From NCBI GenBank assembly GCA_947172415.1, contig OX359200.1, forward strand, positions 4,218,501 through 4,282,500: a DNA stretch of 64,000 bases. Direction: 5' to 3'. Positions 167 to 45,040 of this stretch are shown piece after piece. Below the pieces are notes generated by a model that ran no database searches, was not told the DNA's origin, and saw only the letters and a list, made by a program, of their open reading frames with translations. This DNA is from Chondrosia reniformis. Its lineage: Eukaryota > Porifera > Demospongiae > Chondrillida > Chondrillidae. Positions within the stretch are counted from its first letter, which is position 1. Each line of letters starts with the position of its first letter. The position numbers and the translations under genes are program-made.

Positions 167-1769
167 TCAAGTTTGATTTAGTGATGGATATTGCTTGATC
201 AGCTCTTTAATGACATCTTGAGTATTTACTGTAATCTGAATTTTATCAAAAGTTCCTTTGATAACATTGCCATGGTAACGTCTACCTGTCAAGGTAGACA
301 ACATTTGAAAACTTGAATTGGAAATTTGTGCTTGTGGAACAAGTTCAAACATCAGTGCATTATCAGTCAGCCACCAAAGATGAACCAAACCAGCACCATG
401 TACACCTGTGGGAAGAAGACATGCAAATCTACTTTGTTAAATTGACTTTAAGGAATTTGAAAGTATCACTTTGTAACACAATACATAGGTCATGCAAATA
501 GCCAATTTTAGTGACTCATGCTGTATCTTGCAACCACAAGTTTCAACACTTAGATTACAAAACCTACCCATAAGGATATCTACTTCATGGACCATTCTAA
601 TTTGATCACATATAGCATAATCCTCCATGAATACAGAATTGACAGTTGCTCTGGGAAAGCTTTTCTTTAGGTTATCAATTAATTCATCTTGGTTTTTCAG
701 TACCCGCTGAAATGCTGAGAGTTTGTCATTGGTAAAATGAATGTATGGCTTACGTAAAATTACTAACATATTAACCTTTCCATCAGTAGGGATGGGTCTG
801 TAATTATCAACCAAACCACAAGCCGTAAAACCTTAGCTCTAAATTTTGAGAGATACGTGTCTGTTAATCCAGTGCCATTACATTCAAAGCATTTTATAAT
901 TTTATCATTTTTACACCTAAACGGTACCGAGGCAAATCCCCAAGGTACTATAATAATCTCATCGGCACAATGGACCTTGTCTCCATTAGGAATGTCTTCA
1001 ATTGCTCTGGTGTTGCCAAAAATCTTTACTTCCAATTCAGGGAACAAAAAAGGAGTGTTCCACCTGTTCAAACGGAAGATGTAGGAGTCGTCATTTCCTC
1101 CAAATTGTTCAATTGCCACAAAAAGGTTATACCAGCCTAATATCTTAAAGTAGCGTTACCACTGTGAATGAACACCTTTCCTTTAATGTAGACCTCACAT
1201 TTTCCCTTGGGTTGGGCCAATGCAACTCCTTTGACCATTCTCTCCATGTAGCCTCCATGTTCAACATGTTGTGAAAGGTTTCCAAATTTACATTGTGGTG
1301 ATCTGAGATTGGCACTGATATTATCAGGATAGAGCCACATCCCACCATCTGCAAATTCATCCAAATGGTAAGAGCTAGAGGGTTGGAAGCCAGTGTTTCT
1401 CAATGTACATATCCTGATTTTTCCACTGTAGTCGTTGCCAATGCAGTCTATGCGACTGGAAGTATCACTCATGCAGACTCGATAGTGCCGACTGTAAGTA
1501 CGCTCTATAAACGTTTCACAAAAGGTGCCGGGTTTCCAAGTAGATTTAGACTTATTTCCTGACACGCGAAGTCTACTTTTATTCGGATTAAAAGCTGACC
1601 GTCCTTGTGTGGAGTTGAACAAATCAAACTTGCCAGACTGAATCGGCTGATCATCACGATCAGCTTTACTTAGTATGTCATGAGGAATACTTAGGACTCT
1701 TAAAAAGTATATTATTCCAGCTAAAAGTAGCGATACGAAGAAAATCCATCTTCTTCTACTATACATCAT
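167..1769 (-). CDS. GT61-family glycosyltransferase, EOGT/POMGNT2-like type II membrane protein
   Basis: Four-exon model: 1769-1160, 1136-820, 775-568, 405-167 (458 codons with stop). Two adjacent ATGs start the protein; the first is used. A short basic stretch (MMYSRRRW) precedes a hydrophobic signal anchor at about residues 9-26, as in Golgi/ER type II enzymes. The third exon ends in DILMG and joins the fourth to give VHGAGLVHLWWL, the family's HGAGLTH nucleotide-sugar site, followed by ALMFELVP. GT61 enzymes transfer GlcNAc or xylose to secreted or membrane glycoproteins in the ER/Golgi; the acceptor cannot be told from sequence. The third intron (567-406) has clean splice sites. The second is 44 nt (819-776), with a 56-nt alternative (831-776). 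The first needs either a 23-nt GT-AG intron (1159-1137) or a frameshift. EOGT and POMGNT2 are the main alternatives. Confidence 0.8.
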
Positions 1770-2278
1770 TTTTGATCAGTACTGTATACGTATATTAGAG
1801 GGCTCTCCTAAATGCATATGCAAATAGTAACATCCGCCCGACAAAACAACAAATTCTATAGGAAGGCTTTTTGGGACGCCGCAGGCGCCCCTATATTGTT
1901 TTCAATTAACGTAATGGTTTCCTGTCCGTAACCTTGTAAACCGCGTCTGTCTCCAAAATGGCGAACGCTCGGCTGGCTGTCGTTTTCTAGCTTAAATTAA
2001 CTTTTTCCTCCTTAGCGTCGAGGTTGAACCAAGGATTTAGAAACCACCTTTACTAATACTATGTAACAGCTTGCGCAAAAACGTTTTCTACGAGATATGG
2101 CCTTGAAAAATTGACGGCATACAAGAGTTGACCGGAATTCGTTAACCGGACATCTAATAAGAACCAGCAAGTAGTACGAGTTTACATGGGGGCGCCTGGC
2201 ACCCCACGAGTTATTTATACTCAAACTAGACTTGTTTTAGAAAACATCTTTAACTAGAGATCGATAAAGGAGAGACTT
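1770..2278. other. Head-to-head intergenic region
   Basis: This lies between the glycosyltransferase start and a possible plus-strand exon. It is less AT-rich than its surroundings around 1860-2200 and may hold promoters for both directions. No coding sequence with family resemblance was recognised on either strand. Confidence 0.35.
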
Positions 2279-2411
2279 ATGGAAAGTATCAATACGGACA
2301 GTGAACAGATACTTGATCTTGAAAGAGGAACATGTGTGACCACAGAAGAAAGCACTGGCATTGTTGCTCTTGAATTTATACATCATCTATATGCTCACGT
2401 CTATATAACTG
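2279..2411 (+). other. Possible first exon of the Kunitz-TIL fragment
   Basis: An ATG at 2279 opens 44 codons and runs to G|GTAATG at 2411, leaving phase 1. That phase matches the Kunitz exon at 2947. The peptide (MESINTDSEQILDL...) has no signal-peptide-like hydrophobic run, which argues against a secreted protein. The link rests only on phase agreement and position. Confidence 0.25.
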
Positions 2412-2946
2412 GTAATGTATACATATAAAATGCAATAGAATTGCTTCTGTAACTCTCTAATTACTTTATTGACCAAACTGTCAAACTAATGCTAATATGG
2501 AATATGGATTCGTTTTTTAAGTCCCCAAATTACTTACAAGATACAGTAGATTGTAGATGCATAGTTTAAGTATAAAGAGTAAAACAAGGTCACTTTCACA
2601 CTCCAGCCAAGATTACCCGCAAGCTGCAGTAGTGATATTTCTTGGTATGATTATACACTTAGGAAAATAGTACATTCAGTTGAGGCTGTTTACAAGATAG
2701 ACTGACTGAAGTGAATGGACATAGCTTAAAGGCCCACTGTCATAAAAAGTGACATTTTAAAGTTGATAAGTATTTCCTCATTACTTACATAAGTGGTAGT
2801 ATGATGAGGAAAAGGTGTTGTAGTTACAGTATGTACGTATATACATATAGTGGGGAAAGCACAGAGTGTATATGATTATTTGTTCTTTCTTGGCCTATGA
2901 ATGTGCACATATGTAAGCTACCTATGTATATGTATAGTGGCCACAG

Positions 2947-3470
2947 AGACCCCCGATAGATGCACTCTACCAGCTGAAAGTGGCCTCTGTAAGGCTGCTT
3001 TTCGACGTTTTTATTTCAACTCTGACTCTGGTCTGTGTGAACAGGAGGATGTGGAGGGAATGACAATAACTTTGAGACTATTGAGCAGTGCCAGCAAACT
3101 TGTAAGTATAGGACTGTTCTGTTTTGCCAAAGCACGAATAATTGAAGTCGTTGGCAATATTTGCAATTCAGGCTCCTAGAAAATGATGAATGAATTCGAA
3201 GATAAATGATTTAAAAAATGTATAAAATATATTCCAGTTGATATATTTTTGATAGTTAAATTTGTATCGAAGTTCTCTAAAACACTATAGGTCCTACTGC
3301 ATGCTCAGTGCATGGTCAGCACTACTTTGATATAGAGGACGGAGAGTATGTCCCCTGCATTGGTACATGCACTGAGCCACAGGTTGCGAGTGGCTGTGAA
3401 TGTCCAGTTGGAACTCTATTTGATGAAAAGACAAGGGCTTGTGTTCTTCCAACACAATGTCCACAAAAAT
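2947..3470 (+). pseudogene. Broken Kunitz-TIL gene fragment, paralogue of the mosaic inhibitor genes
   Basis: Two exons are readable: Kunitz at 2947-3101 and TIL at 3291-3470, both phase 1-1 like those of the two large mosaic genes. The Kunitz exon reads [20 protein letters not shown] with Lys after the second Cys (trypsin-type P1). It then shifts frame after LCEQ; the other frame continues [19 protein letters not shown]. Compared with intact copies, about 10 nt that would encode FIYG are missing. Restoring 10 nt gives 165 nt, the normal exon size. The TIL exon (GQHYFDIEDGEYVPCIGTC, then SGCECPVGTLFDE) lacks the segment between two conserved cysteines. No convincing terminal exon follows. The locus looks like a decaying duplicate; an assembly error is the alternative. 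Confidence 0.7.
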
Positions 3471-5699
3471 GTAAGTTACTATGTGAAACTACTGTACTTA
3501 TTTTGTAGTCTATTAAATATGATAAAAAGTGTACAGTATGTACAGAAGTATAGCTAGCTGATTTATAGGCAGAATATACACACAAGTGCAGATGTTTGTT
3601 TAATAGAATTCTCTTATAAACTTGATGTACGTATGACCTCAAGCTTAGAGTTAATACATGCATCTAATTGAATCAAAAATATAGCAGTACTCTTTTGGTA
3701 AAATGACCCTGTTTTACGTATGTATGGATTATTCCCTTAAAACTGACAACAAATAGATTTTTTACCTATTCAACTCCCTAACCATTGTGATTTTACTAAC
3801 TGAAAGGTTTTGAAGCTGTGAATATATAACAGCTCCAAGCTCCTCACCTCAATTATCCTTTCACACCATTTTTGATCTTGACCACTACGCATGTGCAGCT
3901 CCATGTGTAAGAGCATTGTAATAGAATTCATATTCATCACATAACTCTTCAACCTTACTCAGGATCTCACATTGTATCGTGGTACCGTCGGGTATAATAT
4001 TTGTATATACCACAAAACCGATTACCCATTATACCGTGCAAATTTTTATAGTAGCTGTGCGGTTTCCACAAACGTGCTGTACCACTGGTGTTTTACAGTG
4101 TATCACTGTATAAATCACAGCTGTAAATAATTGAAAACTACAAAACTTAAAGTTAAACTACATTTAGCTTAGGTAACACAGAGTTGTTGTTGCTGGCTAT
4201 ATTGATAAAAGTAGAACGCAAAAGTCTAATGAAATAAGAATTAGAGTGGAACAAGCAAAGGCCGTCCTTCTGAAGTACCATTCCTATGTATCTTTATAAT
4301 TACCTTGTAAAGCATGTAATACCTAGCTATAGAGATGAAGTGTTGTTAGATTAAATACGTATTTTCCCTGAATGAAGTTTTTTATGTTCCTATATATCTT
4401 TTTATTGTACAGTCTTCTGGAGTCAAGTTACAGTACTCTAAACAGTCTGCTGAGTCAGGAGTGTGGCATAGGTCTTATTAGTGTGATGCTGACACCTTCT
4501 GTACCAAACCAGACTCATAGTGGGCGTGGTCCTCGGGGGCTTCTGTTTGCTCTGTCTTTGTCTGCTCTGTGGATCCTTTGCTGCTGGGAGAGATGAAGAA
4601 GACATACATACCAGAAGAAAATAATTGGTATGCTTTATGGCACTCTGATGAAAGCACAGTAGGAAGTCATTTATCGATTAAGACCAGAGGATGTTTGGAT
4701 ACTGAAATTTTGATAATTTAAATGTGTTTATTGCTAAAGCAATGTACAGTGTATATATAATATATGTATGTAACATGGCTGATTTGTTTATTGAAAAGAT
4801 TGTGGTTGCGCAAATCAGGCAACAGGATCATTTAACGAAATAGACGTCTCAACCACAAACGCCTTTATCAGCTGCTAGCTCAACAACAATCTTTTTCATT
4901 GTCAGACCCAACAATTAGCTACAATACTGTACAATTTGCATTGTTGTCAGTTGAAGTCTGCTGCAGCAATCACTGTTTTTGTCTGTTTCTGATTCATGGG
5001 TTACTTCTTTACTGGCTGTAAGAGAAATCTGTTAGCTAATACAATGGTCCCCATAGTAATTGTGCAATGATATGTATTTTTTGGTTGTTCGACATAATTA
5101 AAGTTTAGATAACCGACTTCCTACTGTATTAACTTGTATGTATTATGGAATATTCAAGCAAGATTGTCAAAGAGGTACATATTTTTTATTCCTTCCAGCT
5201 GGTTTATCAACTTTGGATAAGTTCTCGCACTCTTTCTATGCAACGTAAGTTACTGCTGGTGATTGCATGTACGTATGTCTTCTAGGTGTATATATAAAAC
5301 AATTAAGCTGCAAACTCTTTTATTATAATTACCCGGTAGCTTCAATTTAATAAAATTGGATTTATCTCATAGAAGACCAAAATAACGACAGCGACATTAT
5401 ATTTAATGATATTAAAAGAAAACCGCAGTTTTGACTATTTTGCCATGACGTTTTTAAAAGACCTGTACTGAACATATTGCTACAGCACAAAAATGTCCCT
5501 TTTTGCATGGACGGTCACATATATACAGTGCAAGTTACTAAGGTAATCATATATACATATATACATGGTTACGAACAGGAAGCTATATATATATATACGT
5601 TAACATAATTTCTGAAAACAATATAGGATCATCAATTGCTAAGTATACAATAGTATGTCTGTGCAGTATGATGACCAAGATTAGTATTAACATAACAGA
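3471..5699. other. Intergenic stretch, no supported gene
   Basis: The stretch is AT-rich. A short reading frame at 4372-4596 (+) ends in a hydrophobic segment (GLLFALSLSALWILCCW) but has no family resemblance, and its phase does not join the upstream TIL exon cleanly. A weak hammerhead-like motif lies at 4843-4871 (-), between imperfect inverted repeats near 4793-4808 and 4881-4897. Confidence 0.4.
4843..4871 (-). ncRNA. Weak hammerhead-like motif
   Basis: The minus strand reads CTGATAA, then about 14 nt that pair poorly, then GAGACGTC. The layout resembles the stronger hammerhead motifs in this window, but the core is altered and helix II is poor. Imperfect inverted repeats flank it, as at the 40820 copy. 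Probably a decayed retroelement-derived motif. Confidence 0.25.
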
Positions 5700-7466: not shown

Positions 7467-7545
7467 GTTGATTTATAACTTGTTAATTGATAGTACACTG
7501 AATAGGCCTGCCATGTTTTTTCGGCCAAGATTACTTTAGATGAAG
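7467..7545 (+). repeat. Dispersed foldback/MITE outer module
   Basis: It shares TTGATTTATAACTTGTTAAT, then TACACTGAATA, GGCCTGCCATG, a T run and CGGCCAAGATTACTT with the modules at 1-75, 20101-20190 and 63240-63330. Confidence 0.5.
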
Positions 7546-7577
7546 ATACAGGAGTCTTTATTCCTTATTCTTCTGCT

Positions 7578-7630
7578 CCACTTGGCCAGACAGCTGTTTC
7601 TGGGAATTCCACCCTTTATCAGTGACCCTG
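7578..7630 (-). ncRNA. Type I hammerhead ribozyme-like sequence (diverged core)
   Basis: The minus strand has GGTCA, then CTGATAA, then a helix II hairpin (GGGTGGAATTCCC), then GAAACAGCTGTC, then TGGCC. GGTCA pairs with TGGCC to make helix I. ACAGCTGT is a perfect palindrome that could form helix III within or between molecules, ending at the GTC cleavage triplet. G8 is A here, which should weaken cleavage. The surrounding 150 bp resembles the copies at 30678 and 43466. Confidence 0.5.
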
Positions 7631-7931
7631 AAAATCTTTGTCTTTTTCTTTATCTCAATCTTTTGTAAATCCTTGACTTTCTATATGCTAAATCTAGGGA
7701 TCTTAGTGCCAAAAAGTTAAAAAGGTGTTAGCTAATTAAGACTCATGCAACCTATATAATTTTATTAAAGGTGAATGTATAAGTCAAATTACATATATTT
7801 TATGATTGGGGTTAAATGAATTTTATTAGCTATACATTTTTGTGCAGGCAAAACAGAGTCAGCACATATATTACAAGACACATGTAGGATACATTAATAG
7901 CTATAGATTAACATTATATAGCATGTGATGA

Positions 7932-11074: not shown

Positions 11075-14000
11075 TTACTCACTGAAGGATTGATTTTTCA
11101 TTAATATGCATCCATTTTCACTCCATTTGAACATCCTTTTCAATGATGGAGACATTCTAGATTGCACCTTGTTGGTATTTGTTATGCCACCTAAAAATGT
11201 AACTTTAAAGTTAATGCTTTGAGGTTTAGCTGCTATTCCATCCATGACTGATACAATCATTGCTGTCATTTCCTGAAGTTGGGAAATCTTTCAATAATGT
11301 AAATTGACAAAGAGTTATATATATATATATATAGCACACAGCAGCTGGACATGACACGAGTATGTAACGTGTTATATATATACAGTCGAACCTCGTTAAG
11401 ACAAACATGGTTAATAAGAATTTTCGCCTAATAAGAACATTTCAGTAACTTTTGGTTGGTTCTGTATGTAGTGAATATCAAACTCTACGTTTAAAGCAAA
11501 CCATTTATTTCGAATTTTCGGTTAGTAAGAACAATTTACGCATCATAAAATATATTCCTCGCCTTTTATACCAACTTTACACCTTTTTAAAGATATTTTC
11601 GAGACGAATTGTATCAAAGTAGACTCTATCGCTCCATAAAAAGGTACGGATACAGAAAGAGGTTGAGCGATGTCAGGAACGACGCTCAAAGGCTGCAAAG
11701 TACATGCTACTGAAGTCGTTGTTATCAACAATCTTGAAGAACAAGGACAATTTCTTTCTATTTTACAATTTCTGTTTATAAGAACTTCTGTTAAGAAGAA
11801 CTGATCAATATAGTCGGTCCCTTAAAGTTCATCTTAATGAGGTTCGACTGTATATATATGTTGATTAAAATCACGCACTTCTTAAGTGAAACATCAGCCA
11901 AGTTTCAAAATTTAGGGACAGAGCAGTGGTATGAGGGTGTCGAAGAAGTTATTATTAAGCTGTATATTAACTACCCAAAAGTCTAGGGTGGGCTTAAATC
12001 AATCCCAGGGGTGGCAAATGCCCCCAACCCCTGCCCCCCTCTATGAAGCCCTGGTAATGCCCGGGAGATAAAATTTAATTTACTAATTTATTCATTGAAT
12101 AAGTAAATCTCATCAATTGTCAGTTAATTAATACCCAATTGGCACCAACTACGTACATCGATCCTCATCCAAATATCAATAGATATTCTTAAGTCTCATG
12201 TGTATGTACATATTATATTCTTTATACATATGTGGTTTTCGTTATCACTCCTTATGCTTGATAACCATCAATATGGGACAACATGGTGATTCATACTATC
12301 CGTGCAAATTGTCCTTACCTCATATTGTAGGGATAAAAGAGAGAGCTCGACATCTATTTCTTTCAGATTACATTGCTCATATGCTTCTTTCAGTTTAGTG
12401 ACTCCTTCAGAGTAATCATAGTCATTCTCAATGGAATCAACCTTTTAATTAGAGGGAAATACATTTAAAGGAACAAAAATTAATGAATAACAAACTAATT
12501 TACCAATTCTTTGAAAAAGTTGAGATTTTTTGAGTAAGTGATAATATACCACTACATACAAAACTGAATTTCAGTACATATATATACAAATGCTGTAACA
12601 CAGGACTGCTGCTTCCTCTTCTTCCTCATTGAGCAGTGCTGTTTGACTTTGCTTCAGTTTAATACCACCCAGGGTTTGGAATCAATTATGCTTCAGCCAC
12701 ATGACTGTCTGTAAGTTTAAATTTCATGTGTCCCAAGTACAGTGTCACCCATTTAATAAACCACCGGATAATAGGCCAAACCATTTCTTATGCCATGATT
12801 TTCTGGCACGAACTCATCAGTATGGGGAAGTATACGCTTATTGTGTCAACTGCCAAATCTACCATCCGCCATGTTTTTTGGCTACATTAGTACTTTCAGA
12901 ACGTGTTAGGTAACACTTATTAGGCCAGCGCTTTTTGATTGTTTCAAGCAAAGATGGCTAACAAGCTCAGAACAGACTGGACTGTAACCCAAAAGCAAGA
13001 AATTTGTGCATATAAAGAAGCCAACTAGAAGACTAGCCAGGATGAATCACTGGACATTTTTCACGTAATTGGGAGCTACCTCCTGCCTGAGTTTGCTAGA
13101 AATTTGTGCATATAAAGAAGCCAACCAGAAAACTAGCCAGGATGAAATTACTGGGCATTTTTCACGTAATTGGGAGCTCTAGATCGTCAGAAGATAAAAT
13201 TAACTGTGTAACGTGTAATTAGTTTGGAATTTGATATTAGGCCTAAATTTTCCAAAATGAAATGTGGCCTATTAAGTGGGTGGCACTGTAGTTACATTTT
13301 AAGCGTAAGGTTTCTTTATACGAACATAGAGAAAAGTATATTGCATGACTCTTGGTGATGGTTAACACAACGAATGAAACCAAAAAACTAGGAAATAATA
13401 AAATCAAATAATGGCTCAAATTAAATTTGTATGAAGTCATTTTAAATTTTAAACTGCATCCTAAAACACGATATCACCAACAATAGCTGCCTAAAATACA
13501 TAATCAGGGAGTTGTTTGGACTATTAGTGTGTGACCAAGTGCTTTATATGCAAGTTAAATGTACCTACTATATAGACTATCAAGATAACATTAGATTGCA
13601 GTACCTCACGATCACTAATCTCTGCCACCACCCTAATCTGTTCCAGCCTCTGTGATTGTGCAATACAAAGAAACACATCTACCCACTCATGTACTCTACG
13701 CATCAGGTGCAGTGTACACTTTAGAGACAATGATCCAGGAACCACATCACTGTTACTCCAGTGGTCATGAAATTCTTTATGATCTACACGCATAGAGAGA
13801 AATGACGCAATCATTACTCAAAAGATCCCAGAAAAAGACGAAGACTCCTAGGGTCACTGACAAGCATTTACACACACATGTTGACTAAGATAAAGAAGTT
13901 CTTAATGGTATTATTTTAACAGGTGTCAGCATTCATTGGACTGGACTACTGGATTGTCTATAATTCAAATAAATTTGTATTAAGATGATTACCTTAGTTG

Positions 14001-23595: not shown

Positions 23596-25603
23596 TTCAA
23601 ACAAACAGGCTCAAGGGAACTAGAACGCTCTACCCTCTACATTGCTGATTCTCAGGTGGGCGTGCACAATTAAATCTGCTCACATACCTGCTAGTCTCCT
23701 GCATCACCATAAGAGTGCTGCTGGTGGTCTATCCAGTCCATATGTTGTTACAAACCAGACAGCATGTCTTTCATTAGGTCCGGCTGCTATAACTCCACAC
23801 CGTTTTGTTCTTTGTAATCGTATTATAATCATTAATGGTTTATAAAGTTCTATTTTTTAATCCTCTTAGTTTCTAATCACTTAAGCCATAACATTTCACT
23901 ATACAGTGACACTAACACACATACATGACTCCTTGGTTACAGACCAGCTTATAACTTGCACCCAAGGGCATTAAAAGCTGAAGTCAAGCACTGTTAAAAC
24001 ACAGATGTACTTACTTGGTGGATAAAGTATACCATTCACTAGACCCACCAATGATGGGTGTGTGATAGGTGTACTTTACATACAAATGAGGAGATCTAGA
24101 GGTGCTTCTGTAATGGATGATCATGATGGACCTAGGCCTGTTTATAATGTAGCATGCATGGATACAAGGAGAAACTGTAGGGTACATGCGTATGTAGACA
24201 AAAAACTCCTATGTTCCCTCTATTTATATAAGCTTCCATTTATTGCATATGCATTTGCTGCACTTTAGGGCTTTGTTATTGGCTCTGTATATCCTCAAAA
24301 GCAGATCTCTACCTTTTGCATTGCATCTTCTGCCAAGTATATACACGTGTGTGTGTTCGTATGTGATACATATGTGATACATACGTGTGTATATAGTATA
24401 TCATATGTAAGGTATATAGGAATTCTTTACAATATGTCCAGCATACATATGTAATATCTAATAATTGGGTTGTTTTGCTAATTACACTAAATTAGTTCCA
24501 AATTTGTATATTTAATACCATCGGTTAACATTTACTATAAGTAATCAAATTGTGATTATTAAGTTAAACTATTAGAAAAAGAATTGTTCCTAGATGACAT
24601 CTACTGATCCTGGCTTAATAGAAAAGTTTGAGATTATACTTGATACTAGTCCCCAGCTGGAGAAAGCCTATATAGGTGCACAATGTCTTTGAGTGCATCT
24701 AACCACTCCATTAGAGCAAAAACTATAAGAATTAGAAGAAAGAAATTAACACAAATAGAAACAAAGTTCAAAAGACAAATCATACATAACATTAAAGTAT
24801 AAAATCACTGTAATAATTGCCATGTACATGCAGCTATTTGCTTCATAATTTAATTGTTCCTTTTAATCTAATAGTCCTCATTTCAGTGAGATGTTTCATT
24901 AGGCCGCTCACAAGCAAGTAGCAGTGCTTATATACGTACGTACTGGGGTCTAACCATATCAAAGTGTCATTAGCCACCTTCAATCAATCATAGGAGAATT
25001 GATTAAATCTGATAAGATTATGTAATGACATCAACAGTATAATCGATAACATCCAGATTAAAATATATCCAAGTTTCTATTTTTTAATTAATTTACAAAT
25101 ATGTATGTAACTCATGTACATGTGCAGTTTTGAATGATCATTTTCCTTGTCTAACAGAAAATGTATGGTAATTCTAGTAGCATGAATAATGTGCACATGA
25201 AAAATCTAAGATACCATTTTCCTACATGCTATATGCCTATTCTGTAAAAAGAGCCTAAGGGGAACTAAACCTAAAGAGAGCTTTAGATGAAGATACATGC
25301 ATTATGTAAATGTCTGGTCCTTTTTCTGATTTCTGTGATGTCAACCATGCAGTCAGGACATTCTATGTACGTATGTACTGCTAAATATATGATTGTATAT
25401 CATAAACATGAATAATTAGTGTATAAACTCAAATTCAGTAGAACTTTGCTGGTTTATTGCCTTTAAAATACATTTAGGTGTATACTTTGTATACATGTAC
25501 AGTGAATATTGATCAACAATTGTTATAGCTATATAGTCGTAAACTTACATGTAATATACATACACAATACTAATAAGGTCAACAACTTTGTACACTAACA
25601 TAC
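23596..25603. other. NLR upstream region and unresolved 3' flank of mosaic gene 1
   Basis: About 23600-23850 may hold the NLR promoter. Low-complexity TG/TA runs lie at 24340-24420. Mosaic gene 1 should continue to the left of 25604, because its last readable exon ends in a good donor. No cysteine-rich exon with matching phase was found here. Confidence 0.4.
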
Positions 25604-28513: not shown

Positions 28514-31115
28514 CTAAAATATAAAAAGAGAATGTGTATTATTTCATTTCTTAACTGTTATTCTTCTATATCTATATCTAAGCTTAAATATACATACCTA
28601 TATATAAAAATTAACTGAGCTATATGTGGTTATGTCAACAAAATATTTGGATGTAACCACACAATATACCATCCATATCAGAGGCTTTGCCAACCATTCC
28701 ACCTATTGGCATGCAACACAGCTTTCTATATAAAATTGATAATATGGCTTTTATGTATTTTTAAAAATGTGTTAGGGTCAAAATTTGCAATATGTACATA
28801 CAGTATATCAATTCTACGTATATACTGTACCTTGTTTAGGAATTATTGATAAATGTATAACTAAATAGTGCATATTTCAATTTTATTATATGTAATTTAT
28901 ACCTCTGGGGCAAACTGGACAACACTCTCCAGGGGGTACATAATAGTTATCACAAGACGGTGCTGCACAGTCTCTGATATAACATCTGATTCGTCCATCA
29001 TTACAGGTACTATTATAAGATGAGATTAAAACCTTACTTTAAAATTTTGGACAAGGATCTCTTTGGACAAAATGTATAATGATTTCAGTTACTCACCAAG
29101 ATTCACATGGATGAGTAGAGTAACTTGTACCATCAGGTATAGTTGTACCATTAGCCAGTTTACAGGATTTCGGACAATATATCCGTGTAGATATTATCAA
29201 ACCATTTTGACAACCACTACACATGTATATACAGTATAATAATGGGTATATGCAATATTACATGCACATACTTAAACATTATGTAGATCTAGACAACAAA
29301 TATGAAATCTAAATATGGCAATGGCATATAAAATAAATAGCATAATAATATGTGATTGATCGTTAAATCTTTCACATAGCTCCTCACTAACCAAGCATTA
29401 CATCCATCGGAACACCTCCAGCTTTCTCCACTGGCATAATATTGTCCATCCCAACAATCTTTTAGAGAAAATTTTATGTAAACTTTAAAATTAGGAACAT
29501 TATGGTAGTTCATTGACAAATGCTCACATTGCTGGGGACAATCTTTTGGCACTACACAAGCATTAGCTTTTGTGTCCAAAAATTTATTTTCAGGGCAGCC
29601 ACAACCACTTGAACAAGCAAGACGACAAAGAGTCAGTGGAGAATCGCAAGTACTCTGACAAGGCACACATTCACCATTTCTTATGTCATAATACCTCTGA
29701 CCTTCAGCAGGACATCCTGATTTATATACAAAATAGGATATCCATAAGTGATGTTATTACTTATATATATAGGCACTTCTCATAATATATCAGTGTCAAT
29801 TGATGAATATATATAATTAGCGGAACATCTTTTTAGTTACAAAAAGTATGTAGATTTTACAGTACATTTTGTCTAAATACTTATAAATGGTCGACTTACC
29901 ACACTCTTTTTGGCAATCACCCAATATCATAAAGTTATTTTCATTCCCTCCACATCCTCCATATATAAATTTCTCGCAGCGACCACTTGTAGAATTGTAG
30001 AAGTACCTTGGAAATTTACCTCTGCAGTAACCTACTTCTGGCTCCATTTTACAAATATCTAAAATATATACAGTACTTTTTGGGTCAGTTGTCCAGACCG
30101 GGAATTGCAATTGGTAATTGTAAAAGGTTATCGCTGCATGCATAGTGACATCATTCTAGTGGGAAATTTTGTTCAAATGGTAGCTGTGAATTACTGATTG
30201 CAACGTCCCATCTGGACAACCGACCAACAAGTAATGTATAGCAGCACCTTTCACCATCATCACAATAAATATCACTGCTACATAGTTCAGTACATAAACC
30301 TGGACTTATTGGGTCAACAGGAGGACAAACCACTAATAAAGTAGATGATGCATGTATGACATTTGCATATGCACGAGAGACAATCTTCCCAACACATTTA
30401 AAAATTAACATATTCAGTACCACTAATTCATATATACGTATACATTCAGCTTAACATGATAAACTGTATATACAGTCGACTCCTGATATAACAAACACCA
30501 AAATCCCAGCATAATTGTTCTTTATAAAAGAAGTTCTTTATAACCAAATGTACTTTATTTGTATATAACTATGAAATAATAATACACTATTCTCTACATA
30601 CTATGTCTATACTCTGTTATAAATTAAAAGAATTATAGGGAAGTAAGCCCTTGGGATAAGGATAGTGGAGTCTTGCTCCACTGGGTCTGCAGACTGCTGT
30701 TTCAGGGAATTTTACCCTTCATCAGTGACCCTTGGTATCATTGTCAATCGCCCTAGGCCTATGATATTTAAATGTAGAATACATGCATCATATATATCAC
30801 CATGACATACTATTACGGCAATCACTGGGATCGACACATTCGTTTCTCATCAAATCAGCCACTTCTCCTGCAGGACAAGTGCATCCTATATTTAATCCAC
30901 CGCACACAATATCTGGTTCTCTGCAGGTTCTTGGACAGGCAAAGAAGGACAGATACTGACCATCTATGGTGCACCCTATCAATAAGAAATCAAAAATAAT
31001 GACCAGTGTTTCTATTATTGCATCACTTTGCCTTACAATCGAAAAACATTGGCTCAGCACTTGCAACAGCAATCAGGCTAGCCAGGAACGCGATTGCAGA
31101 ACTATACACGTACAT
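25604..31115 (-). CDS. Mosaic secreted protein 1: TIL/WAP/Kunitz/VWC-like inhibitor
   Basis: Fifteen exons were placed with agreeing phases (2252 nt, about 750 residues); the 3' end is open. Exon 1 (31115-31037) encodes a signal peptide, [20 protein letters not shown]. Module order: TIL, degenerate WAP, Kunitz, TIL, VWC-like (three exons), TIL, VWC-like, TIL, TIL, TIL, VWC-like (two exons). TIL, Kunitz and WAP modules are canonical or remnant serine-protease-inhibitor folds, so a secreted inhibitor or defence role is likely. It lies in the same orientation as mosaic gene 2 (40958-50501) and shares exon types and one duplicated WAP-intron segment with it. It could alternatively be an adhesive or matrix protein. 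Confidence 0.75.
26583..26672 (+). repeat. 48-bp tandem duplication
   Basis: GGACTTTAAAAGGATTAAT and the following GATGTCAGAATATTCTGGTA occur twice with a 48-bp period, directly beside the donor of the exon at 26698. Confidence 0.75.
30195..30760 (-). repeat. Segmental duplication shared with 43142-43560
   Basis: The WAP exon, its acceptor and several hundred bases of upstream intron match between the two mosaic genes (for example ACTAATAAAGTAGATRATG, then CACGAGAGA.AATCTTCCC). Both intron copies then reach a hammerhead-like sequence. In this copy a pogo-type left end (CAGTCGACTCCTGATATAAC from 30473) and AT-rich sequence interrupt the match. The pattern indicates duplication or gene conversion between the paralogues. 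Confidence 0.7.
30678..30735 (-). ncRNA. Type I hammerhead ribozyme, core intact, sense in an intron
   Basis: Read on the minus strand, all conserved parts are present. Helix I 5' strand is CCA-A-GGGT-CA. The core CTGATGA follows. Helix II is AGGG-loop-CCCT. Then GAA, a minimal helix III (AC..GT with a 4-nt loop) and the cleavage triplet GTC follow. The helix I 3' strand is TG-CAG-ACCC-AG-TGG, whose internal bulges sit where type I hammerheads make tertiary contacts. The predicted cut lies between 30692 and 30691. It sits in sense in intron 2 of mosaic gene 1. Such motifs are known in Penelope-like elements and retrozymes; intronic ones occur in vertebrates. Confidence 0.75.
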
Positions 31116-31562
31116 CTTCCTTCAAAAATGAGAAATTTGTCGTATAGTCTAGAATCTGCTGTCTTCCATTTATATATAGTCATCATTGTCTTATTAAGTA
31201 CATACACTTAATCATAGACAGTAAGACTAACCACTACATCATGGTTAGTCTATGGGAAGGAAGTGACAAATTAACAACATGTCATAAGGCAATGATGGAG
31301 AGAAGGAAGTTTGTCCTATAAAATATAATGATTTAACTCTTTGTATATGGGCTACATGCAACTGAGCAGAACATAAAAAGTTAGAAAATAGAATTAAATT
31401 TTGCAAAATAGTAATCATTTTATGTAGAGATATAATCTTTAAATGGAAAAGATTGAGGAAATGATGGTAATTAACAAGTTAAACATTATTTCAAAACTAT
31501 ATAATTCACAAGATAAAATATAAACATTTTAAATAATTTGTTGATCCTCAGTCAGTAAATTT
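31116..31562. other. Intergenic region
   Basis: AT-rich sequence between the start of mosaic gene 1 and the stop of the NmrA-like gene. A short hairpin (GACTAACCA...TGGTTAGTC) lies near 31228. No gene is seen. Confidence 0.4.
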
Positions 31563-32465
31563 CTACATGAAGCAATGTTTGTTCTCAGTAAGCCACTCTT
31601 CAAAAGTTGTGTGCCATCCTGTCAGTTCTTTGGTGATTGTTGAAAATGGCACTGCCTCTTTCCCAGCGGATGCCATGTATTCAAATAATTGAAAGAGGAA
31701 GGGAGGGAAAGAGCTCTTCAGTTGGGTGGATGGGATTGGCACATACTGAATGTCCTTCTCCAGGCATTCAGAAAAGGATGAGGCAAATTCACTCATGCTG
31801 TACAGTCTTGGACCACTGATGTCATAACACTTGCCATGGTGACCTTCACCCCTGCGAGCAAAAAGGGCAGCAGCCACCCTTCCTATATCCCGTGGATCAA
31901 CCGGTGGAATGAACACCTCCGGAAAATATATTGAACTTTTTTCCTTTATGCTGTTTGAAAACAAACTGATAAAGTTCTGATTGAAAAAGCCAGGTCGTAA
32001 AGACGTCCACTTCAAGTCTCTTTCCCTTTCCAACTTCTTCAGCAGCTCTTCAGAGGACAAAAATCGTGAGGCTAAAATTGGAACGGCAACAGGTCGTAAT
32101 ACAGTCCATGAGCCGACATAGACAATGTACTGCACACCCATGTCCACAGCGGAGTTTATCATATTGCTCGTCAACTCAGCGTCCTTCGACATATCATGCC
32201 CGCCATGTGGAGTAACAATCAGAGCGAACTGTGCTCCTTTAAACGCTGAATCCAGGGATTCTTTGTTATTCGCATCCACTCCTACTAGACTTGTAAAATC
32301 TTCTCGGTTTTGATGTCTTTGGACGAATGGAACAGCTTTCTCATGATTGCGAAACGCAGCGCGGACTTTGGTCTTTCCTTTGTATCTGACCAGGAGCTCA
32401 TGCAGACAGGAGGAGCCCGAGTTACTGTTTCCTGTTACAATTGTCACAGTAGGGGTGGCAGCCAT
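31563..32465 (-). CDS. NmrA-like NAD(P)-binding Rossmann protein
   Basis: One uninterrupted frame of 300 residues from ATGGCTGCC to TGA. The N-terminus VTIVTGNSNSGSSCLHELL is a beta-strand and dinucleotide loop like TGxxGxxG, with the second and third Gly positions partly changed (GNSNSGSS). YIVYVGSW and LRPGFFNQNF match the NmrA/atypical-SDR pattern with the sheet strand and the post-active-site LRPGxFM-like motif. A Tyr-x-x-x-Lys pair is not evident, so it may be a redox-sensing or NAD(P)-binding regulator rather than a dehydrogenase. Length (about 300) is normal for the family. It lacks introns, unlike its neighbours, which fits a retrocopy or an intron-poor ancestral gene. It starts head-to-head with the gene at 33932. 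Confidence 0.85.
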   Translation of the reverse strand: MAATPTVTIVTGNSNSGSSCLHELLVRYKGKTKVRAAFRNHEKAVPFVQRHQNREDFTSLVGVDANNKESLDSAFKGAQFALIVTPHGGHDMSKDAELTSNMINSAVDMGVQYIVYVGSWTVLRPVAVPILASRFLSSEELLKKLERERDLKWTSLRPGFFNQNFISLFSNSIKEKSSIYFPEVFIPPVDPRDIGRVAAALFARRGEGHHGKCYDISGPRLYSMSEFASSFSECLEKDIQYVPIPSTQLKSSFPPFLFQLFEYMASAGKEAVPFSTITKELTGWHTTFEEWLTENKHCFM

Positions 32466-33931
32466 TTAACCGGATCAAAAATCCCGGGGGAATTGAAACA
32501 GGGGGAAAATTGAAATCTTGTTACACCGGACCCACTGTAAATAATGTGAGACATTGATTTACTTAGCTGGCATGTCTTCAATGGCTCTTGATAATTAACA
32601 CATGTTCCCACAATAGAAAAGAGTGACAGACAATCACTACTTCATACTTCATAAATGAATAAATCATCAGTATTTGGTTAATATATCATATTATTACATT
32701 AAAACAAATTCCTAGATTTATAAGTGTAAGTTTCAGCCTATTGAGCATTGAATGAGGAACAGAAATTTGTCCTCTTTTCCATATCTGCATCCAGGACTGG
32801 GGAATTTGGGTCATCTGACCCAGCCATTTTAAGGTTTGGATGTTGAATTGTAGAACGACAAATTGCCTGAATATATGATTTCAAGCTAAAAAGTCCTATA
32901 AATGGCTCAAGAATCATGACAAACCAGCATCGTACAAAATAGGTTTCCTATTGTTATGATAAATTTCCCTGTAAATAAACCTCATGCAACACATATGCTG
33001 TTTATTAGTTAGGCAAAGCTCACCTTCACCCCGCAAGTGGAAGGATTGCATTGTTGGAGTGAATCAACTAAACCTAAGTCTAGCTAGTTGTGTATTTCAT
33101 TGTGTTGCATAGTGTGTGCATAGGTGACATGGAGTTGCACAAAAGCAATTACACTTCCCATTAAAATTACAATTACATTAGCGAACCAATAGTATATCTA
33201 TGAACACTTGGTTAGGGGTGCATGTGATCCATATAAGAAGGGTGGCTACTTATTACATATATTAGTATGGTACAATAAATAGTTAAAATGGGGATGTATA
33301 CTGACAACAGAAATTAAAATACAACCTTAACATAAAATTTAAATTTTCAATGGAGATAATCCTAACATAAAATTTAAATTATTATTATTTGAGTCCTTCA
33401 AGTACTATGCACACTATTGGGTCTTGCCCCCATTGTATCCATGTAGCACTGTACATATATACATACATATGGATTTACATGAAAAGGGGAGTTTATTGCA
33501 CATAAGCCTGTGCTGGTCTATCATTGCAAATAATAAACACCACTTGATATTACACCAACCAACAAAGTCTATTTGTGGCAACCAGTGATGACCTCCCAGT
33601 CATTCAAGATGGCAAAAAATCATCAATGAACCACAGACAGCTGTTTTGCCCTCTTTAGGGCTTATCAGTGTGGTATACATTGGTAGCTGAAAATTTGAAA
33701 ATTTGGTTGCCAATGAATAGGATTTTGGTCCCCCAGCAAAGTAGACAATTGTTGGTGTAATAATATCCAATGGATTTTCATGTCCTTCATATACACAACC
33801 AATGAGCTATATACAACATCACATTAAAGTCCTCGGGTGCTTCACATTGGAAGCTTACGGATTGCGCAATGATTTAGGACTCCACCAAAACGGTCATGAT
33901 CGTAAATGGGTAATCATCTAGAAGCGTAAAG
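32466..33931. other. Head-to-head intergenic region with repeats
   Basis: This lies between two divergent starts. A hammerhead-like sequence is at 33624-33682 (-). The stretch 33701-33780 resembles 38606-38700 (GTTGCCAAT, AATAGGA, TTTGGT.CCCCAGC, TTGGTGTAATA), marking a small dispersed repeat. No gene is supported. Confidence 0.45.
33624..33682 (-). ncRNA. Hammerhead-like sequence with strong helix I, diverged core
   Basis: On the minus strand helix I pairs CAATG and ACCACA with TGTGGT and CATTG around a small internal loop. Helix II is GCCCT-AAAG-AGGGC, perfect. The region after helix II is AAAACAGCTGTC, with the palindrome ACAGCTGT for helix III and GTC for cleavage. The core reads CTGATAA and AAAA, so two conserved G positions are A. 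The fold is preserved while the catalytic core is not. Confidence 0.55.
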
Positions 33932-40797: not shown

Positions 40798-40899
40798 TTT
40801 AATCCAGAGCACATGTTTGCTGATGAAGACCAACGGGTTGAAACGTCCTATTATCAATAATTTTATGTTGCTGTTGCTCAATAAAACCTCTGGATTAAA
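40798..40899 (+). ncRNA. Hammerhead-like core flanked by inverted repeats
   Basis: At 40820-40847 the sequence CTGATGA, A, GACC-AACG-GGTT, GAAACGTC has an unaltered core and a 4-bp helix II. Compared with 7124-7152 the helix keeps pairing (GGTC there, GGTT here). Perfect 12-bp inverted repeats (TTTAATCCAGAG and its complement) lie at 40798-40809 and 40888-40899. Helix I is not clear. The unit looks like the end of a Penelope-like or retrozyme element. Confidence 0.4.
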
Positions 40900-40957: not shown

Positions 40958-43900
40958 CTGGAGGGGTTTGAATTCCACAAAATATTTCTGTACAACTGAC
41001 AGAACCATTCATGTCACATATGCTACAAATATGTTGAGCAAGTATAATGACATGCACAAACATGCATACATTTAGTAAACAAAACTCAAAAAAGTTAAAC
41101 ATCAACTCATGTATAATCATACACTCTTCATGAGCTGAAGAACTCTATATTAGTCACTTTAACTTACTCCCTATATATACGTATATATAGCTAATTAATG
41201 GTTTTTATGACATGTATATAGTAAATACGTATATCCTGAAAATTGATCGAGTATTTTGTGCTTTCTATTCCAACTTACCAAGTGTTACAACCATCGACTG
41301 CAGGAAATTCATTCCCATGTTTATATTCCTGTCCATTGTAGTTACAGAGACAGCTCCCACAACAGCTGTCAGGTGCAGGAGGAACGCTTGCAGCACCAGG
41401 AGCACAGGACAAGCATGATACAGCCTATATAAGATTTACAAGAGACAGTCAGTCATTGATTAAATTGTAACACATTCACCTAAGTGTAAGCAATTAATAT
41501 TATGAATGTATGGTCTGTGCTTTATAATGAAAGACTCACAGAACAGTTCAGTGGCACTGCAGTAGTACACACATGTCCACATCCATTGGAACAGCACTTT
41601 TCACCCTCAGTACAATTATCATCACTGCTGCACAATTCAGCACAAAGGCCACCTTGACCAGGTCTCACTGGTGGACATACCACTGCATAGAGAGTAAATA
41701 TGAAGGAATAAGGAGTACTAGTTGCAATTATTTTGAGAATAAATTCTTATCGAGTGTCAGCAACATGAATTTACAGGAGGTAGATTGGCAGGCCTTTTGA
41801 CATTTCTCCAGAGATATAAAGTTGTTTGCATTGCCTCTGCAGCCTCCATATATGAATTGTTCACACTGCTTGCTGGTGGTATTGTAAAAATATCTTGGGA
41901 AGTAAGCTCTACAGGGTCCAGAATCTGGTTCCAGTGAACATACTAATAGTATACAAAATTGATACTTTATATACATATAAAGGTATGTTGAAAAAAAAAT
42001 GCAGACACATATACACACGTAAACACTTCTATGGACAAAATAGTCTACCATGCAAGACATCACTCTAATTTATATACTATCAGTATAAGATTGAACAAAT
42101 AATAACAATTATAAAATAATTTGTAGTAGTATATATACGTATATACGTATGTAGGTCTTATTCATATGAAGCATTACAAAATACATTACAAATATACTAG
42201 GAAATTAATAACTTACTAGATGTTGTTGGACAAGCTATTTCAGTACAAGCTACATGACCATCTAAACCACAAGTACTAGGAAAAGAGATCAGTCAAAAGT
42301 GTTTTCGAAGTTATACTGTAAAGGCCTACACTTACCATGTATTACAACCATCATCAGCAGGAAAGGTATCTCCAGGTTTGTATACCTCTCCACTGTAGCT
42401 ACAGTGACAGCTACCACAGCAGCTGTCAGGTGGAGGAGGAATGACTACAGCACCAGGACCACAGGCTAAGCATGAAACTGCCTATATATGTACAAAATTT
42501 AAGGTTAAATAACTTAATTGTAAGTCATTCATATCACAAAGCAGCAATTTTTGAACTTTTTAGTGAATTTGGTACCAGTGTTCTATATCTGTGCGTATGT
42601 ATGTAAATAGGCATTCTGCCATACCTATATAGTCCTTGGCAACTTCAATTATTGATATTAATGTGTATATAATCAAAGGTAGCCTGTGATAACACTCAAG
42701 GAATATGCATGGAGGGGTGAATGTTGACATGGCAATTAAGTCTAGTTGTGTGTAAATGCACATGTGTACATGTATGGTACAGTATATATTTTTATGAGCT
42801 TACAGCACAATTGAGTTTAACTGTAGTGGTACATTCATGTCCACATCCATTGGAACAGCATTTTTCACCATCATCACACTCATCATCGCCACTACATCTC
42901 TCAGCACAAGAACCAACCATTCCAGGTCTTACAGGTGGACAGACAACTATATCCATGTATTATATACATTAAAGAGAACATCTACCTACGTATATATTTA
43001 CAAATACATTTAAGTTCTACATGTATCAGCTAGCTAAGATATAAGTAATTTTGAATATATTTACTATTATACAGTATCTATTATCATACAGTACATAATC
43101 ATTTTAACTCTCTATGAACCTTGCTATACATCCAGACTTACATGGTTTTTCTTTTACAGCAACCCTGCACTGATGTCCACATCCATTAGAACAGCACTTT
43201 TCTCCATCATCGCAATCCTTATCACTGCTACATAGTTCAGCACATAAACCTGGTCTTCTTGGGTCAACAGGAGGACAAACCACTAATAAAGTAGATAATG
43301 TATGACATTTGTATATGCACGAGAGAAAATCTTCCCAACACATTTACATATTCAGTACAACTATTCATACGTACATGTATATTCATCTTAACATGGTAAA
43401 CTATATATAAAAGAATAATATAATACACTATTTTACTACAAGCTAAAGGATACTGGAGTCTTGTTCCATGGGGTCAGACTGCTGTTTTGGGGAATTTTAC
43501 CCTTCATTAGTGTCCCTTGGAGTCATTGTCTATTCTTGATCTTTTGTGAATTATTGGCTCTCTATGTCGAATATAAGGGTCTTATATACACCCTTTTGGT
43601 GCCATAACAGGACACATGTATATATAGGCCATGGTGTAGTACACTGGTACAGCAGTATATAATATTTTGGGGGTGGGGTAATACAGACAGCCTTTATAAG
43701 TACACTAGCTATATACTTTTAGAGCCTGTTGGATAGGAAAGTTTTACAGCTTTAAGTATTTTATCCTTGTTTTATTAATCTATTACATAACTAAAAACAT
43801 TTACCCTGCAGAAAACTAATACCTGACTAGCTGTTAAATAAAGACCCCATAGGATGGGGTATTAAGAATATTACTATCTAAATGGGAGAAATTCAGTACT

Positions 43901-45040
43901 GGATGAATGTTATCACTGACAGTTATTATATATAGAATAATAAATGTCAAACTGACCTAGTAAATGACTACATGCAATATCTAGAAGTAAAGGAATGCTT
44001 GGAAACCATTTAATGCTGTGTAGCAGATCTTCACATCTATGGTTTCTCAGCTTTTCATTTTAATTTGGCAAGCCATCTATTGCACCATATGTATGTAATC
44101 TGTTTTTAATTTCCCTTCAGTAGATTAGGAGCCATAAGGTGATACACATGTATGTTTTGCCATAATATACTTAAGAGCACATTGGATATCGAAGCTAATA
44201 TTGTTAGAACTTGTCATGATAATATAATTCCATGCCCCATATATACAGTATACATTGTATGGACTAAATAAGCACAGCCTGTTAAATTACAGAGATTTGG
44301 TAACTAACTTGTTGGGCAGGCCTTTTTTATGCTCACACATCTGTTAGTCTTATAATCCAATAGGGTACCCTTGGGACATCCGCATCCACTGAGGCATTCG
44401 GCTGTACACTCTGGTTTAGGATTGTAACATGTTGCTTTACAAGGCAGGCACTTATTTACTCCATCATAGAATCTTTGACCTTCACTGGGACAACCTATAT
44501 GTGTACATATGTGTACCTTGCTGAACATATAGCGATTATAAAGTTAACACAACATGATTAAATCTCAGGTTTCATAGTGCATGAAATTTATGTCAAACTC
44601 TTTGAACTGCCATGTTTCAAAAGGTATGAAAGTATATATATATATATATGTATAAACTTGGAAAGGGGGCTGTTAAAAATTTGAAACTTGTGAAATTGAT
44701 CTATTAGTGCATACTTGAGCACCCTTTGAAACCTGGCTGTTCAAGAAGTTTCAAATATAGGTTTTAAGCCATATTAAACCTGAGATTTGATCCTTGCACT
44801 AGTAAAATTGAGTAACATTAATTTTTGATGAACACATTACATGTGGATAAATGTGCAAGTAAAAAATAAATATCACACCTTCATGACATCTCCCATAACA
44901 TGCCAAGTGTGTTATGAAATTGTTGTCATTTCCTCCACATCCACCATAAGTAAACCTCTCACAAAGTCCACTAGTTGAGTTGAAGAAAAATCTTGGGAGT
45001 AAACCCTTACATGGACCAGTCTCTGGTTCTAAGTTGCAAT
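40958..45040 (-). other. Mosaic gene 2 exons 20-29
   Basis: 45040-44879 Kunitz ([13 protein letters not shown], Lys P1); 44494-44309 TIL; 43282-43142 WAP; 42946-42804 WAP; 42481-42336 and 42275-42217 VWC-like; 41942-41775 Kunitz ([13 protein letters not shown], Arg P1); 41682-41540 WAP; 41424-41279 and 41022-40958 VWC-like. This is a rearranged third block with two WAP exons side by side. The intron between TIL and the first WAP (44308-43283) carries the hammerhead-like copy. The last exon ends P|GTATTT in phase 1, as before a Kunitz exon elsewhere. Confidence 0.78.

Follow-up and report, generated by a model that had tools for sequence, protein, structure and literature searches.

The hammerhead-like motif in a likely intron of a sponge protease-inhibitor gene is very probably a decayed relic of the hammerhead carried in the pseudo-LTR (pLTR) of a Penelope-like element (PLE), and most likely one that exerts no selected effect on the gene. 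The motif lies in a stretch of 64,000 nucleotides of Chondrosia reniformis DNA (contig OX359200.1, positions 4,218,501 to 4,282,500), referred to here as the window. We infer both the history of the relic and its absence of function; the evidence comes from the layout of the motif, from its relatives within the window and across the genome, and from a full-length element that carries the same motif in each of two direct repeats.

Results

The motif and its host gene

The minus strand at 30735-30678 reads CCAAGGGTCA CTGATGA AGGG TAAAATT CCCT GAA AC AGCA GT C TGCAGACCCAGTGG. These letters were read directly and the core was assigned by pattern match, which gives the following parts.

30678..30735, minus strand: hammerhead-like motif of type I layout, from the letters and the pattern, without an Rfam hammerhead match
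30726..30731, minus strand: 5' strand of helix I, GGGTCA, read directly
30719..30725, minus strand: core strand CTGATGA (C3-A9), by core pattern match
30704..30718, minus strand: helix II, AGGG / CCCT, with loop TAAAATT, from the alignment of copies
30692..30703, minus strand: GAA (30703-30701), helix III AC/GT with loop AGCA, and C17 at 30692, by pattern match
30683..30691, minus strand: 3' strand of helix I, TG-CAG-ACCC, in which CAG is an insertion according to the alignment

Every position of the hammerhead core CUGANGA / GAA / UH is kept in the window copy, and the cut at its GUC site is predicted to fall between 30692 and 30691. Helix III consists of 2 bp, AC/GT, and is thus weak as in PLE pseudo-LTR hammerheads. 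The loop of this helix is AGCA in the window copy and its paralogue as compared with AGCT or GGCT in most rows of the family alignment described below, and that of the window copy departs from the palindromic ACAGCTGT of subfamily A. In helix I, two bp from the cut site, there is a 3-nt insertion that occurs in the window copy only and is absent in the other 53 alignment rows. Position 10.1-11.1 is an A-U pair in the window copy and is unpaired in the other 49 of the 50 distinct rows; T at 11.1 was also seen in a few further copies in the genome-wide listing of core-pattern matches, so the window copy is not unique genome-wide. Together with the full core, the A-U pair might be of some help to catalysis. 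A previous sequence-only reading had called the motif an intact type I hammerhead. The core, helix II, the GTC site and the bulged helix I are indeed present on the minus strand, but the word intact is at odds with the 3-nt insertion and with the lack of an Rfam match.

The same reading had placed the motif in sense within an intron of the gene, and this was confirmed: it is in sense to the gene in a likely intron, the limits of which were deduced, between a TIL-like exon and a WAP exon.

30818..30940, minus strand: TIL-like exon, upstream (PF01826, E 0.0033, 18 bits, below the cut-off of 24.5)
30333..30816, minus strand: likely intron holding the relic, its limits deduced from splice-like GT/AG and reading frames, with an alternative donor possible at 30810
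30238..30330, minus strand: WAP exon, downstream (PF00095, E 8.1e-06, profile positions 4-31 of 41 only)

A Kunitz exon is found further along, past the WAP exon. The WAP exon at 30330-30238 (minus strand) is without the end of the profile that carries the final cysteines, which are kept in the WAP stretches at 43.2 and 42.9 kb; this exon may be decaying. An inverted repeat of 42 nt with 76% complementarity (window 30078-30119 / 30189-30230) adjoins it.

Chance, Rfam models and folding

The pattern CTGANGA-N(8-20)-GAAAC-N(0-6)-GTC matched the window twice, once at this motif and once at 40820 in a motif of another family. The mean over 100 shuffles of the window was 0.02 matches and none of the 100 reached 2, while the genome as a whole gave 3,015 matches to the pattern versus 80 to its reversed form. 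Since both controls yield far fewer matches, the letters of the motif are not due to chance. The second core in the window (40820-40847, plus strand) reads CTGATGAAGACCAACGGGTTGAAACGTC and belongs to another genome-wide family, without helix III loop letters. The pattern of that family has 1,029 places in the genome within 2 mismatches and none when reversed, and helix I is hardly visible at the 40820-40847 copy.

The sequence-only reading had proposed a covariance-model search with Rfam as a check and had held that the absence of a match would count against the motif. The window copy gave no match to the Rfam hammerhead models at the gathering score, nor, in a search of 401 bases, at E<=10. 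This outcome is weak as a refutation because the motif of a full-length element in the same genome also fails: neither that element (L084) nor a typical copy of the family (L024) gave an Rfam hammerhead match at E<=10. With the window copy and two relatives all without a hammerhead match, the family cannot be placed by Rfam.

Free folding of the window stretch did not give a hammerhead, and 16 of 200 shuffles folded at least as well. Helices I and II of the window copy can form and helix III has its 2 bp, but the free ensemble is better than the hammerhead fold by 10.5 kcal/mol when 10-12 pairs are enforced; the corresponding cost for three other copies is 4.2, 5.4 and 5.5 kcal/mol. A clear RF00163 match likewise prefers a non-hammerhead fold, suggesting that nearest-neighbour energies are a poor guide for hammerheads.

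The motif belongs to a large dispersed family

A 34-nt pattern derived from the window motif was found at 1,728 places in the genome within 2 mismatches and at none when reversed. A search with the window stretch returned at least 40 matches including itself (40 scored of 762 candidates), and the other 39 were 79-88% identical to it over the motif part. When one relative was used as the query, at least 44 matches were obtained (40 scored of 3,473 candidates). The sequence-only reading had stressed that known intronic hammerheads are few. Their rarity is beside the point, since this genome contains well over a thousand near-copies.

The family was examined in an alignment (A1) of 54 rows, 50 of them distinct, which were hand-chosen, mostly from 75 matches, and all of which contain the motif. 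To these were added the third copy in the window and copies of subfamily B, and some rows were lengthened at their ends by a few bases; the set omits partial matches, loci that recurred and those members of the C7 cluster that are nearly identical. All 12 core positions tested are kept in 43 of the 54 aligned copies, and the intact core of any one copy therefore says little about selection. The minor-letter fraction was 0.022 at core positions versus 0.068 elsewhere (Mann-Whitney p about 0.01), which is not taken as proof because many of the rows were found by similarity to the window stretch.

Pairs of the assumed structure are conserved in 88.0% of the alignment cells as compared with 16.5-52.1% for slid versions of the structure. 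Covariation within the family was not above that of shuffles: there is 1 pair with two-sided change, a number reached by 322 of 500 shuffles, and 59 of 500 shuffles attained the covariation score. At the base of helix II, 49 of the 50 distinct rows are unpaired, most of them with A against A. Passages in PMC7229834 describe axolotl retrozyme hammerheads, including a form with U.U at this position, as cutting weakly alone and better as dimers. From the core-pattern listing, 33 helix II strings were picked by hand, with the commonest string of the window's family left out, and 23 of these 33 form at least 4 pairs. For seven strings from the family of the window motif, 42-189 of 500 letter shuffles reached the observed helix II, as compared with 0-12 of 500 for each of six canonical strings. 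Because shuffles reach it often, helix II is insufficient by itself to show that the window's family consists of hammerheads. Across the families of the genome, the core is constant and helix II changes complementarily (GTCC/GGAC, GCCC/GGGC, GACC/GGTC, GACCC/GGGTC), and GAAACAGCTGTC is common to the window's family and the RF00163 matches. From these cross-family changes of helix II, the shared GAAACAGCTGTC and the place of the motif in a PLE pLTR, we infer that the window's family is hammerhead-derived.

Canonical type I hammerheads are also present in this genome, with at least 65 matches to RF00163 at E<=0.001, including L039-L041 and L043. Several of these stand in direct repeats spaced 352-355 bp, and some copies lie nearby on opposite strands; judged by their sequence, these repeats appear to be retrozyme-like elements. 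A genome that holds such elements, with the same GAAACAGCTGTC, could have supplied the window motif as a fragment of a non-LTR retrozyme, the kind of small circRNA element made of tandem repeats of about 150-450 bp that bear a canonical type I hammerhead. However, the window copy and the aligned family copies map to a PLE unit of 3.5 kb, no direct repeat of at least 20 nt of the motif stretch was found in window 29500-32500, and the window copy has no RF00163 match. A retrozyme origin has next to no chance of being correct and was dropped because the RF00163 matches form another sequence family.

A Penelope-like element as the probable source

A 361-nt query from one subfamily yielded 40 scored matches of 1,169 candidates, itself included, all 99-100% identical, and five pairs of these matches lie about 3.5 kb apart. 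The full-length element L084, which is one of these pairs, has a direct repeat of 1,214 bp that is 100% identical, located at 297-1510 and 3798-5011 with a spacing of 3,501 bp, and each repeat contains the motif, at 1302 and at 4803. A stop-to-stop frame of 997 aa extends over 1568-4561 on the plus strand. Near the N-terminus of this frame, GIY-YIG was detected at E 9e-05 with 23.1 bits (cut-off 22.6) when the N-terminal part was scanned and with 21.9 bits, against the same cut-off of 22.6, when the whole frame was scanned. RVT_1 was detected in the C-terminal half at E 5.4e-06 with 26.7 bits, below the cut-off of 29.6, when that part was scanned; scanning of the whole frame did not list it at E<=0.001. 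With the last 353 aa as the query, at least 117 matches were obtained (115 scored of 1,108 candidates), and the 997-aa frame is uninterrupted in 8. A search of solved structures returned a single match, at E 0.17, which was unrelated.

Because it combines direct-repeat pseudo-LTRs bearing a hammerhead motif with RT and GIY-YIG, L084 is by its sequence features most probably a PLE. The family motif thus resides in a pseudo-LTR that forms a direct repeat, in an element that carries RT and GIY-YIG matches and to which the window copy is related by sequence. The near-identical copies and the open 997-aa frames make the element look recently active. The N-terminal GIY-YIG of the L084 frame is reminiscent of the permuted clade of PLEs reportedly described by Craig et al. 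in 2021. Origins from a SINE, a MITE or an LTR element were early guesses that were abandoned in favor of a PLE once the 997-aa frame was found.

The motif block begins at 4803, about 240 nt past the ORF stop at 4561 and shortly downstream of a TATATAAG box at L084 4738-4745, which is TATA-like as judged by eye. A scan of the pLTR for bacterial-type promoters, which does not cover animal promoters, found nothing. The place of the motif in the full-length element would be as expected of the self-cleaving motifs of PLE pseudo-LTRs. These positions bear on another reading, in which the stretch is a decayed coding sequence with an open frame and the hammerhead letters are coincidental. A frame is indeed open across the motif in most of the copies translated, as was first noticed in a set of copies without seven C7-cluster loci, but TGA, TAG or TAA occurs in that frame in some copies. 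Moreover, the L084 ORF stops at 4561 and the motif block starts at 4803 with the TATA-like box between them, and the core letters GAAACAGCTGTC are common to clear RF00163 matches. As the ORF of the element stops upstream of the motif, the coding reading was dropped, and we consider it very improbable.

Relics of the element in the window

With the PLE as the source, the following pieces of the element were recognized in the window.

30571..30745, minus strand: decayed 3' fragment of a PLE (pseudo-LTR end) carrying the motif, 3' limit approximate
43465..43607, minus strand: remnant of that same insertion, located in the equivalent intron of a paralogous unit; its core is broken (CTAATGA, AAA)
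43764..43912, minus strand: pieces of the reverse-transcriptase ORF of the element, upstream of the 43.5k relic (tblastn E 2.4e-09; blastn 84% over 95 columns, 43912-43818)
7534..7896, minus strand: third copy of the 3' end of the element, 72% over 394 columns, core G8 lost
25197..25297, minus strand: short copy comprising the final 102 nt of the unit, starting 3' of the hammerhead, 99% over 102 columns

When the intron was compared with 51 family copies by blastn, the five best matches ran from 30745 to 30581-30556 at 70-73% identity. Against L084, the motif part in the window showed 81% identity over 75 columns (match 30745-30671). A profile search of the window found three copies, at 7642-7574, 30745-30674 and 43530-43464, all on the minus strand. 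There was also a weak partial match to the profile at 13837-13860, where the comparison with the element gives a piece at 13830-13860. The 99% identity of the piece at 25297-25197 indicates a very recent short insertion.

The relic in the paralogous unit, 12.8 kb away, is 85% identical to the 30.7k copy over 91 columns of the motif part. On the WAP exon side the paralogous unit shows 85% identity over 231 columns with the order unchanged (43.3-43.6 kb). The RT-ORF pieces lie upstream of the 43.5k motif, as expected of a 5'-truncated PLE insertion. In this relic the catalytic G5 and G12 are both lost (CTAATGA for CTGATGA; AAA for GAA). With two catalytic bases missing from the copy in the paralogous intron, there is no sign that cleavage is under selection here, and the motif is not conserved in the host intron in the manner of domesticated hammerheads. 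We propose that a 3' piece of a PLE inserted in an intron of an ancestral multidomain protease-inhibitor gene, that this intron was subsequently multiplied to two or more copies by duplication of the exon or gene, and that both intronic PLE pieces may have been decaying since the duplication.

The sequence-only reading had further proposed that cleavage would affect splicing or isoform choice. A working intronic hammerhead that cuts the pre-mRNA in sense is consistent with the complete core, the GUC site, the A10.1-U11.1 pair and the sense orientation in the intron. These features are outweighed by the 3-nt insertion by the cut site, by a hammerhead fold that lies 10.5 kcal/mol above the free ensemble, by the broken core in the paralogous intron, by the absence of an Rfam match and by a helix II base that is unpaired in 49 of the 50 distinct aligned rows of the family. 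We consider such a ribozyme quite improbable, and the proposed effect on splicing is not supported, given a dispersed PLE-derived family and a paralogous core without G5 and G12. It is possible that the window copy has a slow residual cut. As a PLE relic, the copy in the window represents a decayed instance of a kind already described, and it is most likely debris and not a switch of the protease-inhibitor gene.

Origin of the short copies

The ends of the family copies were mapped on L084 as the limits of local alignments and are hence approximate: of 51 sampled copies, 23 have their 5' end within 4759-4773, a single 15-nt stretch about 30 nt after the TATA-like box, and 40 of 53 mapped rows reach 4983 or beyond, near the unit end at 5011. 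The 5'-end count covers 51 of the 53 rows, with the two long subfamily-B rows L079 and L080 left out, and only the motif-bearing piece of the 43.5k relic was used. The presence of the motif was required of every row, and copies beginning at the cut or 3' of it would therefore escape this sample. The simplest explanation of these ends is that many short copies came from RNAs that would have started at the pLTR's own promoter and remained uncut at the hammerhead. An uncut template RNA agrees with the behaviour of the Anolis element PAc, for which passages in PMC11167929 report that insertion in vitro used mainly unprocessed RNA as its substrate and that cleavage needed the protein of the element.

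Discussion

With the motif explained as retrotransposon debris, there is one candidate fewer for the control of a gene by an intronic ribozyme. The analysis also points to a recently active PLE that has an N-terminal GIY-YIG and a motif missed by the Rfam models. A genome with about 3,000 matches to the hammerhead core pattern in at least three families is a useful setting, and it offers a system suited to the unsolved role of PLE hammerheads, namely whether the RNA template is cut or uncut and whether protein is needed. One proposal that concerns this role is that the motif of the element is an atypical hammerhead, invisible to Rfam, in which an A at the helix II base is unpaired, that it cuts only with the protein of the element, and that the short copies came from uncut RNAs started at the TATA-like promoter of the pLTR itself. 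We regard this combination as unlikely. If it were true, well over a thousand conditional cut sites would be scattered over the genome, some of them in the sense orientation within introns, and they would act only upon expression of the element.

Hammerhead motifs in the pseudo-LTRs of Penelope-like elements were reportedly described by Cervera and de la Pena in 2014. A literature search on sponge hammerheads gave no report of one among the matches listed, one of which concerned RECK. Sections of PMC7761336 and PMC6155905 mention minimal type I hammerheads dispersed by the thousands in animal genomes, some of them in PLE pseudo-LTRs. As such sources portray PLE pseudo-LTR hammerheads, the motif described here resembles them in its type I layout, its weak helix III, its location in the pLTR of an element that has both RT and GIY-YIG, its repetition in tandem pLTRs and its many dispersed copies. 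It differs from them in that the window copy is a fragment and that the family has a helix III of 2 bp and an unpaired helix II base. GIY-YIG is N-terminal in the L084 element, whereas it is C-terminal in canonical PLEs according to the account in PMC11167929.

Anolis PAc, as presented in parts of PMC11167929, is similar in having a PLE pLTR hammerhead, and the copies sampled here also span the cleavage site, although the presence of this site was a condition for choosing them. In PAc the motif overlaps with the start codon, whereas the L084 motif lies about 240 nt past the ORF stop and upstream of the next ORF copy. Cleavage in PAc depended on the protein of that element.

The non-LTR retrozymes of metazoans, in the description found in PMC7229834, share a type I hammerhead and a short helix III with the motif, and retrozyme-like repeats coexist with it in this genome. 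Retrozymes are portrayed there as tandem units of about 300 bp with canonical hammerheads, unlike the window's family. Finally, the amniote hammerheads of RECK and CTCL, in the portion of PMC6155905 devoted to them, are intronic and are thought to have been domesticated from retroelements. The motif in the window is intronic as well; however, the RECK and CTCL hammerheads are described as highly conserved, whereas the copy in the paralogous intron here is broken.
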